From: Paraburkholderia caffeinilytica
Lineage (GTDB): Bacteria; Pseudomonadota; Gammaproteobacteria; Burkholderiales; Burkholderiaceae
Assembly: GCF_003368325.1 (NCBI RefSeq)
Contig: NZ_CP031467.1
Span: forward strand, 1,364,001 to 1,428,000
Reading direction: 5' to 3'
Length of the DNA stretch: 64,000 nucleotides
How positions within the stretch are numbered: the stretch's first letter is position 1; each line of letters opens with the position of its first letter. The position numbers and the translations under genes were made by a program. Shown in pieces: positions 6,705 through 62,131 of the stretch. The notes below the pieces were generated by a model. That model was not told the DNA's origin and ran no database searches. It saw nothing but the letters and a program-made list of their open reading frames with translations.

Positions 6705-7196
6705 TCAATCGACGCTCGCGCACTGAACCGGTTTCGCCGCCAGCAAGCCCGTCAATACCGTGGGCTCGATGCTGACCAGAAAACCGCGCCGCCCGCCGTT
6801 CAGCCAGATTTTGTCCATCGCGAGGATGCTCGACTCGACGTACACCGGCATCTGCTTCTTCGTACCGAACGGCGACGTGCCGCCGATCAGATAGCCCGAG
6901 TGCCGGTTCGCCACCTCGGGCTTGCAAGGCTCGACGCGTTTCGCGCCGATCTGCCGCGCCAGATTCTTGGTGCTGACGGTGCGGTCGCCGTGCATCAGCA
7001 CGATCAGCGGTCTCGCGTGCTCGTCTTCCATCACCAGTGTCTTGACGACATGATGTTCGTCCACGCCGAGCTGGCGCGCCGATTCCCCGGTGCCGCCGTG
7101 CTCCACGTAATCATAAGGATGTTCGCCGAAAGTGACGCCATGACGGCGCAGAAACTGCGTCGCGGGCGTTTCGGAAACGTGTCTGGATTTGCTCAT
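6705..7196 (-). CDS. ybaK: Cys-tRNA(Pro)/Cys-tRNA(Cys) deacylase, YbaK type
   Basis: This is a free-standing aminoacyl-tRNA editing domain of the YbaK/EbsC family, which removes cysteine wrongly loaded on tRNA(Pro). The 163 residues include HVVKTLV (lysine near residue 52, matching the catalytic lysine region of YbaK), MHGDRTVSTKNLA, and GYLIGGTSPFGTKK, a family signature. The frame extends 17 codons upstream, but the ATG at 7196 (MSKSRHVSETPAT) fits the family. It is transcribed away from the repeat array at 7332-7916. Confidence 0.93.
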   Translation of the reverse strand: MSKSRHVSETPATQFLRRHGVTFGEHPYDYVEHGGTGESARQLGVDEHHVVKTLVMEDEHARPLIVLMHGDRTVSTKNLARQIGAKRVEPCKPEVANRHSGYLIGGTSPFGTKKQMPVYVESSILAMDKIWLNGGRRGFLVSIEPTVLTGLLAAKPVQCASVD

Positions 7197-7331
7197 CGGC
7201 GCATTGTAATGGCGAGTTTGCACGACGGCTATTTGCCGAATGGCCAATTGTGTGGCGCCGGTGATTGTGGCACGATCGTTCGAAAACTTTCCGGCGCACG
7301 CACGCCGGGCACGGAATCGTTTTGCAACTAT

Positions 7332-7916
7332 GTTGCATGGGACCCGAGTAGGCGCTAAAGCGCTAACTCGGGTCGACTGCGTTGCATGGGACCCGAGTAG
7401 GCGCTAAAGCGCTAACTCGGGTCGACTGCGTTGCATGGGACCCGAGTAGGCGCTAAAGCGCTAACTCGGGTCGACTGCATTGCATGGGACCCGAGTAGGC
7501 GCGAAAGCGCTAACTCGGGTCGACTGCGGTGCATGGGACGCGAGTAGGCGCTAAAGCGCTAACTCGGGTCGACTGCATTGCATGGGACCCGAGTAGGCGC
7601 GAAAGCGCTAACTCGGGTCGACTGCGGTGCATGGGACGCGAGTAGGCGCTAAAGCGCTAACTCGGGTCGACTGCATTGCATGGGACCCGAGTAGGCGCGA
7701 AAGCGCTAACTCGGGTCGACTGCGGTGCATGGGACCCGAGTAGGCGCTAAAGCGCTAACTCGGGGCGACTGCGTTGCATGGGACCCGAGTAGGCGCTAAA
7801 GCGCTAACTCGGGTCGACTGCGTTGCATGGGACCCGAGTAGGCGCTAAAGCGCTAACTCGGGTCGACTGCGTTGCATGGGACCCGAGTAAGCGCTAAAGC
7901 GCTAACTCGGGTCGAC
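7332..7916. repeat. Tandem array of 12 palindromic 49-bp repeats
   Basis: Twelve head-to-tail units of exactly 49 bases begin at 7332, 7381, 7430, 7479, 7528, 7577, 7626, 7675, 7724, 7773, 7822 and 7871; the last ends at the GTCGAC at 7911-7916. Each unit is a long imperfect palindrome: outer arms GACCCGAGT and ACTCGGGTC, inner arms GCGCT and AGCGC around AA, then a constant linker CGACTGC-NNTGCATGG. Variants alternate: units 4, 6 and 8 read ATTGCAT with GCGCGAAAG; units 5 and 7 read GGTGCAT with GACGCGAGT, which breaks one arm pair. No unique spacers exist, so it is not CRISPR. The array fills most of the divergent gap between ybaK and the ligase gene and ends 13 bases before the ligase start. 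Confidence 0.97.
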
Positions 7917-7929
7917 ACAGGAGACGACG

Positions 7930-27221: not shown

Positions 27222-27437
27222 GTGAGAGCCCGAAGCGCAAAACCGCACTATCAGCGAGAGTGGGTAGTGCACAACCATGCACGTCTGTTTCTATGGGCGG
27301 GCCGTGGTGAGGTAGCCGCAAGGCTCGCCGGTTTTGGTTTTGTGCCCGGTCTCTCAAACTCGCTACGTGCCCGCTCGCCCCAACTATTGGTTGACGGCTG
27401 TCGGGCGATCCAGGAACACACCGGAAATCGCACATGA
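27222..27437 (+). CDS. Possible short ORF through the structured element
   Basis: A GTG-started frame of 71 codons runs through the whole structured element and stops at 27435-27437, overlapping the ATG of the next gene as ATGA. That overlap would allow translational coupling. Against it, the frame is forced by the RNA-like palindromes, there is no clear ribosome site before the GTG, and the product resembles no family I know. It is listed because the overlap is exact, but it may not be translated. Confidence 0.2.
   Translation: MRARSAKPHYQREWVVHNHARLFLWAGRGEVAARLAGFGFVPGLSNSLRARSPQLLVDGCRAIQEHTGNRT
27223..27433 (+). promoter_or_regulatory. Highly structured leader element before an orphan gene
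   Basis: A long closing stem joins TGAGAG (27223-27228), CCG (27230-27232) and GCGCAAAACC (27235-27244) to CTCTCA (27351-27356), CGG (27347-27349) and GGTTTTGTGC (27336-27345). Inside it are a hairpin GCACTA/TAGTGC (27245-27250 and 27265-27270) and a GNRA-capped hairpin AGCC-GCAA-GGCT (27314-27325) extended by GGCG/CGCC. A further hairpin TCGCCC/GGGCGA (27375-27380 and 27403-27408) with inner CCAA/TTGG follows. The structure ends shortly before the ATG at 27434. It looks like a structured RNA; I cannot assign it to a known class. Confidence 0.6.
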
Positions 27438-60907: not shown

Positions 60908-62131
60908 TTATTTCGCGGCCGATGCAGCGGACGCAGCCTGCGCCGTCTGTGCACCGCTGGCCGCCGGCGCTTCCTGAGCAGTTGCGTCGGAGGCTGGCGT
61001 TGGCGCGGGAACTGTCTTGACCGTCATGCCCGGACGCACCTTGTCGGTACCGAGCACGATTACGCGGTCACCCGGGTTCAGGCCGCTCTCGACCACCCAG
61101 TTCGAACCGTAGGTCGACGAGGTGACGAGCTGGCGCACCCCGACCTTGTTCTGCGCGTCGACAACGAGCGCGGTCGGCTGGCCCTTCGCATCGTGCGTGA
61201 TGCCCGATTGCGGCACGACGATTGCCTTGTCATTGACGCCTTCGTCGATGCGCGCCCGCACGAACATGCCCGGCAGCAGGACGCGGTCCTTGTTCTGGAA
61301 GATCGCGCGGATCGTGACCGAACCGGTGCCCTGGTCGACCGTGACGTCGGTGAACTGCAGCTTGCCCTGTTCGGAATAGGTGCGGCCGTCTTCGAGAATC
61401 AGCGTGACTTTCGCCGCGTCCGGGCCGTTCGTCTTCAGGCGCCCTTCCTGCACCTGACGGCGCAGCTTCAGCCCGTCGAGGCTCGACTGGGTCAAGTCCA
61501 CGTAGACCGGATCGAGTTGCTGAACCGTCGACATCAGCGTGGCCGCGCTAGCCTGCACGTACGCGCCCGGCGTGACCTGGGAAATGCCGACCTGGCCGGT
61601 CACCGGCGAAGTCACGTCCGTATAGCCGAGATTGATTTGCGCCGTATCGACCGCGGCCTTGCCGGACGCCACGTCTGCCGCGGCCTGTCCTTCCGCGGCG
61701 ACCGCGTTGTCGTAGTCCTGCTTGCTGACCGCATTGGCCGCGACCAGCACCTTGTAGCGGTTTGCCTGCGCGGTGGTGGTGGCGAGATTCGCCTGAGCCT
61801 TCGCAAGCGTTGCCTTGGCGCTGTTCAGCGCCGCGATGTACGGCGCTGGATCGATCTTGTACAGACGCTGGCCGGCCTTGACCTGGCTGCCCTCGGTGAA
61901 TTCGCGGCGCAGCACGATGCCGTCGACCCGCGCACGCACTTGCGCCACGAGGAACGCGTTGGTACGGCCCGGCAATTCGGTGGTGACCGGCACAGAAGTC
62001 GGCTGTACCGTGACGATGGCAACCTCGGGCGTTTGTTGCGGCGGGGCAGATTGTTTTGGTCCGCACGCTGCCAGCAATACGGCAGCCGTCGCGGCACTGA
62101 TTAAGCGGAATGGAACCCGTTCGACGCGCAT
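60908..62131 (-). CDS. bpeA: RND efflux periplasmic adaptor lipoprotein
   Basis: This 407-residue membrane-fusion protein has the lipobox LLAAC with Cys23. Lipoyl, alpha-hairpin and beta-barrel domains follow in order (VRARVDGIVLRREFTEGSQV, the coil with AKATLAKAQANLATT, and SPVTGQVGISQVTPGAYV). It links BpeB to the outer-membrane channel. The N-terminus MRVERVPFRL and overall sequence look like B. pseudomallei BpeA. The start at 62131 has GAGGT seven bases upstream; the frame is open 43 codons more, but over the regulatory region. The C-terminal Ala/Ser-rich tail of about 30 residues is outside the conserved part. Confidence 0.95.
   Translation of the reverse strand: MRVERVPFRLISAATAAVLLAACGPKQSAPPQQTPEVAIVTVQPTSVPVTTELPGRTNAFLVAQVRARVDGIVLRREFTEGSQVKAGQRLYKIDPAPYIAALNSAKATLAKAQANLATTTAQANRYKVLVAANAVSKQDYDNAVAAEGQAAADVASGKAAVDTAQINLGYTDVTSPVTGQVGISQVTPGAYVQASAATLMSTVQQLDPVYVDLTQSSLDGLKLRRQVQEGRLKTNGPDAAKVTLILEDGRTYSEQGKLQFTDVTVDQGTGSVTIRAIFQNKDRVLLPGMFVRARIDEGVNDKAIVVPQSGITHDAKGQPTALVVDAQNKVGVRQLVTSSTYGSNWVVESGLNPGDRVIVLGTDKVRPGMTVKTVPAPTPASDATAQEAPAASGAQTAQAASAASAAK

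Follow-up and report, generated by a model that had tools for sequence, protein, structure and literature searches.

The tandem array that precedes the acyl-CoA synthetase-like gene (acs) of Paraburkholderia caffeinilytica probably represents local amplification of a REP-like miniature mobile element, one that would insert or survive 5' of Shine–Dalgarno (SD) motifs in a single orientation. The element family belongs to Burkholderia, Paraburkholderia, and Caballeronia. Comparison of sequences points to this reading through the dispersal of the unit, its one-way position next to an SD at most places, empty sites in relatives, covariation of the arms, and nested and tandem arrangements.

Organization of the array

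In the window (the whole 64,000-nucleotide stretch that was analysed), TRF detects a tandem repeat at 7332–7916 with a period of 49, 11.9 copies, 95 per cent matches, 0 per cent indels, and a score of 1079. The register is exact, in 49-base steps across all twelve units (7331–7918), in agreement with the twelve-copy palindromic array that a sequence-only reading of the same DNA had described (Table 1). The representative unit, CGTTGCATGGGACCCGAGTAGGCGCTAAAGCGCTAACTCGGGTCGACTG, is hairpin-forming, with single mismatches in a few arms. Its outer arms GACCCGAGT/ACTCGGGTC and inner arms GCGCT/AGCGC are those given by the earlier reading, with exceptions in a few units (GACGCGAGT in two, ACTCGGGGC in one, and an inner-arm GCGCG in three). 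As RNA, the 34-nt hairpin P1 has a predicted folding energy of −25.1 kcal/mol. Units 4, 6, and 8 are identical to one another, as are units 5 and 7, a pattern suggesting that part of the array probably grew by amplification of a two-unit block.

Table 1. Features of the acs leader and its surroundings, in window coordinates.
Feature	Position	Strand	Basis or remark
Twelve 49-bp units, head-to-tail, each with hairpin P1 (GACCCGAGT..ACTCGGGTC)	7331..7918	+	Unit starts at 7331, then each 49 bases until 7870
P0, small 5' palindrome GCAAC-TAT-GTTGC opening the element	7324..7336	+	Sequence; absent from the empty sites compared
Last hairpin P1, copy adjoining the SD (GACCCGAGT 7880–7888, ACTCGGGTC 7905–7913)	7880..7913	+	Sequence
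Shine–Dalgarno AGGAGA, contributed by the host site	7919..7924	+	Also in empty alleles
acs, acyl-CoA synthetase-like gene, TTG start, 520 aa	7930..9492	+	ORF and family match
ybaK, Cys-tRNA(Pro) deacylase, divergent neighbour	6705..7247	-	TIGR00011, above its cut-off
Block GGCACGATCGTTCG upstream of the array	7269..7282	+	Before acs in 29/30 congeneric loci, own included

Thirteen bases (7917–7929) lie between position 7916 and the TTG start and include the AGGAGA at 7919–7924, as had been claimed. The gene assignments of the earlier reading are likewise borne out by NCBIfam: the acs product is by family an AMP-dependent acyl-CoA synthetase (best match PRK06187, E 2.4e-116, below the cut-off of that family), and TIGR00011 identifies ybaK. 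That reading also had the array filling the divergent gap, which it does not: between ybaK and the first unit there remain 83 bp (from the ORF start at 7247) to 134 bp (from the ATG at 7196, probably the true start), and this interval contains the GGCACGATCGTTCG block, a probable promoter or operator region between the two genes. Because the ybaK-side gap holds this conserved block, the array is more likely part of the leader, downstream of the promoter and ahead of the SD, than located at the promoter itself.

At the array no Rfam family reaches its gathering threshold. The model naRNA4 (RF02564), which we take to be linked to E. coli REP325, gives six weak matches on the minus strand, the best at 37.7 bits (E 8e-5) against a gathering score of 59.5; it resembles the array in consisting of tandem hairpins, but the matches are weak and on the opposite strand, and identity with naRNA4 was rejected on both grounds. 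Elsewhere in the window two families exceed their thresholds, the Burkholderia sRNA Bcj14 (61851–62023, 137 bits) and C4 antisense RNA (27289–27382, 47.9 bits), the latter being of a kind typical of prophages.

Dispersal of the unit

The sequence-only reading had suggested looking for the unit in the host genome and in other Burkholderiaceae, and both searches were productive. A two-unit BLAST query returned 54 matches in the 8.32-Mb genome of the host. A covariance model (R1) built from 44 copies, with 150 of 4094 first-look candidates scored, returned 116 matches at E ≤0.01, 98 of them full-length and the other 18 echoes of the hairpin on the reverse strand. Units in the loci retrieved from this genome form 58 places; the acs array is the largest, and the next two hold seven units or unit pieces each. 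All 35 genomes searched in the genus, own included, carry the unit, with 1 to 101 matches each, and the high copy counts are lower bounds at the roughly 102 candidates scored per genome. Across the family, with about 30 candidates scored per genome, it was found in 85 of 200 genomes and in 8 of 25 genera; outside the family, 24 genomes of other Burkholderiales gave the covariance model no match.

Matches in named records, 22 plasmids or secondary chromosomes, come from Paraburkholderia, Caballeronia, and Burkholderia. Four of these records were inspected: in two the array stands right before a gene on the same strand (an MFS transporter in P. largidicola and a class II aldolase in Caballeronia), and two have no feature annotated at the array. 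Decayed copies occur as well. In genome G092, seventeen identical units sit within another repeat, antisense to its small ORF and not at an SD. This second dispersed repeat (L227–L246), often with an SD and ATG, encodes a small N-terminal peptide, MNxPHAHYRSL...PPEGADASLGAARREAS; the near-identical 49-bp units lie inside it in antisense with the reading frame kept, and segments of the repeat that have no unit are seen in L246.

Placement before Shine–Dalgarno motifs

The position of the unit was assessed by asking for a start codon no more than 45 nt downstream on the unit's strand, with an SD-like 4-mer and a frame that stays open for 100 aa or more or runs off the locus. This arrangement was found at 41 of the 58 own places, 38 of them at 7–15 nt from the unit. 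Of 6000 positions drawn at random from these loci, 321 (5.4 per cent) had it, and the mirror arrangement, in which a gene on the opposite strand runs away from the 5' side, occurred once among the 58. Some of the 17 remaining places precede short real genes such as paaB (94 aa), and by our reading 12 of the 17 are truly away from any SD. For other genomes the best-scoring place of each was taken, a choice that may over-represent young copies: 27 of 29 had the arrangement (22/22 and 5/7) and two did not, 19 of the 27 lay at 9–14 nt, and none of the 29 was mirrored. GGAG follows the element within seven bases at 35 of 53 own places and 15 of 22 in other genomes, and a P0-type palindrome (GCAA..TTGC) precedes the first unit at 16 of 58 and 7 of 22, respectively.

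The genes downstream are unrelated. They include a carboxyltransferase, an FlgC-like rod protein, a CoA transferase, PaaB, a histidine kinase, thiolases, MFS and ABC transporters, ExbD, the gamma and epsilon subunits of ATP synthase, MraZ, and HPPD, and the Pfam families found for 28 of 29 downstream proteins searched are functionally diverse (L035 had none at E 1e-10). A metabolic regulon, hinted at by the CoA and aromatic genes, was dropped in view of atpG, atpC, mraZ, flgC, ExbD, and the transporters. The sequence-only reading had tied the role of the array to acs, whether as a bank of sites for a binding protein, a brake on transcription or translation, or a hotspot of recombination, and that tie is not supported, since the unit occurs at 58 places in the genome before unrelated genes and clear units, one to three each, stand at acs in only 10 of 28 scored congeners. 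The unit follows the SD even within an operon (atpG, atpC), and not promoters.

Masking of the SD by the element was considered and rejected. Predicted SD accessibility was 0.45 with the element and 0.49 without it (n=30, Wilcoxon p=0.38; 30 of 40 clusters, chosen for having an SD-like 4-mer and a start no more than 16 nt away), and the absence of a predicted change fits tolerance of the insert.

Gain and loss at orthologous sites

At the acs site P. elongata has one unit with different arms, and in P. panacisoli, P. fungorum, and WSM2230 there is neither unit nor P0 and the sequence runs straight into the SD. The earlier reading had proposed comparing copy number between strains, and the comparison was made between congeners. 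Among the best 30 acs matches in the genus, with a clear unit defined as scoring above 20 bits and L346 left out as it has no anchor motif, the host has 12 units, and the 28 others scored comprise 10 with one to three units, 4 with a P0 remnant, and 14 with nothing. One leader (L332) has four further weak pieces besides its clear units. In L345, L347, L348, and L349 the site retains P0 alone (GCAACCATGTTGCA before CGGAGA), the large hairpin being gone. L330 and L334 carry the hairpin the other way round between CATGGGACC and GGTCCCATG, which looks like a flip of the palindrome.

Ten orthologous sites were compared in 134 leaders, made up of orthologues of nine genes from up to 16 congeners and 23 named acs loci that overlap the best-30 acs set; 19 leaders had a unit, 7 a weak one, and 108 none. 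The clearest case is atpG, which in the host and in three congeners (G003, G006, G012) reads GCTTCGAT, a 48-bp insert, and CAAGGAGCAAG; in two others (G001, G005) the same two flanks are joined without the insert, so that the gap is exact and no target duplication is present. Empty and filled pairs are clean at atpG, iorA, and acs, and nearly clean at mraZ. When presence was placed on a tree of the atp locus, paaB was filled in the host and in the distant G009 only, with 15 others empty. Three changes each were needed for hppD, mraZ, atpG, and atpC, two for sseA (9 genomes), mccB (5 genomes), and iorA (10 genomes, counting the P0 remnant of G006 as present), and one for flgC (11 genomes). Repeated gain at the same SD would be the simplest reading of this scattered presence, part of which could come from loss.

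Structure and nesting of the unit

In the 44 copies of the model, 94.5 per cent of 615 cells are paired, and at 9 of 14 stem pairs both partners change, which happens in 37 cells. Of 500 shuffles, which take no account of relatedness, not one reaches any of five covariation measures, and pairing drops to 14–36 per cent when the structure is slid along the unit. The arms thus vary between loci as matched pairs with complementarity kept. The first stem pair is G-C in 43 of 44 copies and the second A-U in 36 of 44; GACA and TGGG are invariant or at least 90 per cent conserved per column, and the conserved unpaired flanks are TGCATGGG and CGACA. Covariation of this kind could also come about with no RNA function, if imperfect palindromes are repaired with themselves as template.

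Units are single or head-to-tail, and 11 matches (6 own, 5 elsewhere) show the pattern of a unit within the loop of another unit. At ten such loci that were checked, the outer halves pair at 8–9 of 9 positions, and crossed pairings reach 5–9 since the arms are alike, which makes pairing a weak test of nesting. Deletion between copies of a GCT that the loop shares with the unit start could yield single halves, and was considered as a source of half-units; nested matched pairs would need two deletions, and we judge insertion to be simpler.

A leader RNA, too, would be expected to show this orientation and covariation, and for that reason a cis-regulatory role stays under consideration as an unlikely alternative. 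Under it, one or more hairpins upstream of the SD would bind a protein or sRNA, or shield the 5' end, and so tune translation or stability, with tandem copies acting more strongly. The sense orientation, the short distance to the SD, the compensatory changes in the arms, and the conserved unpaired flanks all accord with such a function, and the available part of one report describes Burkholderia double-hairpin sRNAs with CU-rich stretches that are predicted to bind RBS regions (PMC5688073). However, no pathway is common to the downstream genes, the unit is missing from most orthologous leaders and from half of the scored acs relatives (four more keeping only a remnant), decayed copies exist, predicted SD accessibility is the same with or without the element, and the array falls below Rfam thresholds.

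A model for insertion and amplification

The preferred reading, a mobile element amplified in place, takes its mobility from the empty sites, the nesting, and the scattered presence together; within it, active transposition, a mobilising enzyme, true targeting rather than selective survival, and neutrality for expression are inferred. One element would consist of P0 (or a short form, GCTTTGC), ATGGG, the 34-nt P1, and a 3' GACA, some 48–60 bp in all, and would carry no gene. It would insert directly 5' of (N)AGGAG in sense orientation, probably through single-strand transposition that takes place next to a fixed motif. Elements of the IS200/IS605 type sit 3' of a short motif, and viewed on the other strand the insert would lie 3' of CTCCT, without target duplication, and so resemble an insertion of that type. 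An insert upstream of the SD would leave the SD, its spacing, and the start codon intact and would therefore be tolerated. Direct repeats are prone to expand by slippage or unequal exchange. Repeated insertion, also into the loops of older copies, and tandem duplication by either of these routes may have built the arrays, including the twelve units here.

Blind insertion followed by survival only in harmless places, such as just before SDs, would make the array a passive REP expansion. Dispersal, decay, and nesting are indeed like REP and REPIN behaviour as far as the accessible text of one account describes it (PMC3116915). The sequence-only reading had named passive expansion as the simpler view should units prove scattered at random gene ends; the expansion of a REP-like palindrome comes nearer the truth, but the places are not random gene ends. 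A blind process predicts both orientations before SDs and frequent copies close to stop codons, where REPs are reported to lie in the part of the source available (PMC3733652), and the host places run at 41 in sense just 5' of SD-like motifs to one mirrored. The same SD is moreover filled in distant species with intermediates empty (paaB, hppD, mraZ), and blind expansion therefore seems quite improbable. That the array serves the acs promoter as a bank of DNA operators for a transcription factor that binds palindromes, a view for which the dyad symmetry and the divergent genes would speak, is very doubtful, given that position tracks the SD even inside an operon, that arms vary by locus with pairing kept, which a sequence-specific dimer would hardly tolerate, and that most acs relatives have no unit.

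It is conceivable, on somewhat less than even terms, that the insertion machinery reads the SD motif itself (AGGAG/CTCCT) and lands in leaders one way genome-wide, the leader serving as a safe harbour. The junctions at atpG, acs, and iorA are consistent with one-way insertion beside a fixed short motif with no target duplication; exceptions are found in G092 and at the non-SD places.

No mobilising enzyme was identified. The host genome has one PF01797 (Y1) match, L068:1126-1833 on the minus strand (C2:1774634-1775338), with a paralogue at C1:3444478-3445155; the co-distribution and flank results refer to the C2 gene. No unit lies within the 3.3-kb surroundings of this RAYT-like gene (L068/L197 region). 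At least one PF01797 match is present in each of the 35 genus genomes whatever their unit copy number, and the RAYT-like protein family, widely conserved across Burkholderiaceae with usually one or two copies in a genome, occurs in 183 of 200 family genomes, genera without units included, against 85 of 200 for the unit. With a distribution unlike that of the unit and no adjoining unit, the gene is not supported as the mobiliser. The protein has PGAVQLL at what we presume to be the position of the HUH motif, and its sequence suggests that it is possibly a domesticated, non-catalytic RAYT.

Relation to known repeat families

Miniature palindromic elements are common in bacteria, and their choice of site is mostly an open question. 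The available sections of one report place them usually close to the ends of genes or in the space between convergent ones (PMC3733652). For an element of this kind to land or persist right before the RBS, mostly in one orientation, is unusually precise.

The closest comparison is with the CGTC-tagged REPs, including Neisseria dRS3, which the same report describes, in the sections available, as dispersed short palindromes with variable stems and no known dedicated transposase (Di Nocera et al. 2013, PMC3733652). Their tag CGTC is often TGTC, their tail is CCA, and the first and second positions of their stems are A/T pairs; dimers are mostly head-head, with head-tail ones negligible, and copies lie near gene 3' ends (PMC3733652, in the same sections). 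Like them the unit is a short palindrome with many dispersed copies, and its minus strand reads as a TGTC-GACC..GGTC-CCA consensus (TGTC-hairpin-CCA). Unlike them its stem starts with G-C (43 of 44 copies; the second pair is A-U in 36 of 44), and units are single or head-to-tail and mostly placed one-way before SDs. Compared with the partial description at hand, then, the array differs from reported CGTC-tagged REPs in first stem pair, head-to-tail order, and location.

REPINs, in the accessible parts of the literature, are inverted REP pairs tied to RAYTs (PMC3116915, PMC6006769, PMC3390384); they insert into or beside older copies and can stand in tandem, as many as 12 to an array (PMC3116915). 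Set against these partial accounts, GTAG REPs and REPINs share with the unit the character of non-autonomous palindromic mobile DNA, insertion at older copies, and tandem arrays, but the unit has no inverted pair and no GTAG tag, none lies beside the RAYT-like gene examined, and the location is different. The TAACTGA repeats of Beggiatoaceae are, in the available portion of their description, 7-bp heptamers that overlap the expected RBS (PMC4679880); the leader position and orientation are alike, whereas ours are 49-bp hairpins that end before an intact SD. The word Burkholderia is absent from the main text of the CGTC-REP paper (PMC3733652), from a stem-loop survey (PMC1590033), and from the accessible part of a 2025 REP survey (PMC12306157). 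A literature search of titles and abstract openings, covering few subscription papers, returned no description of this element family.

The mostly one-way placement of the unit before the RBS of dozens of unrelated genes in three named genera suggests either SD-keyed insertion or strong orientation-dependent selection in leaders. Insertion that reads the SD, if true, would be a safe-harbour strategy built on a translation signal. Genes of the Burkholderia group thus differ between species by leader hairpins that are probably transcribed and that go unmarked in the annotation examined.
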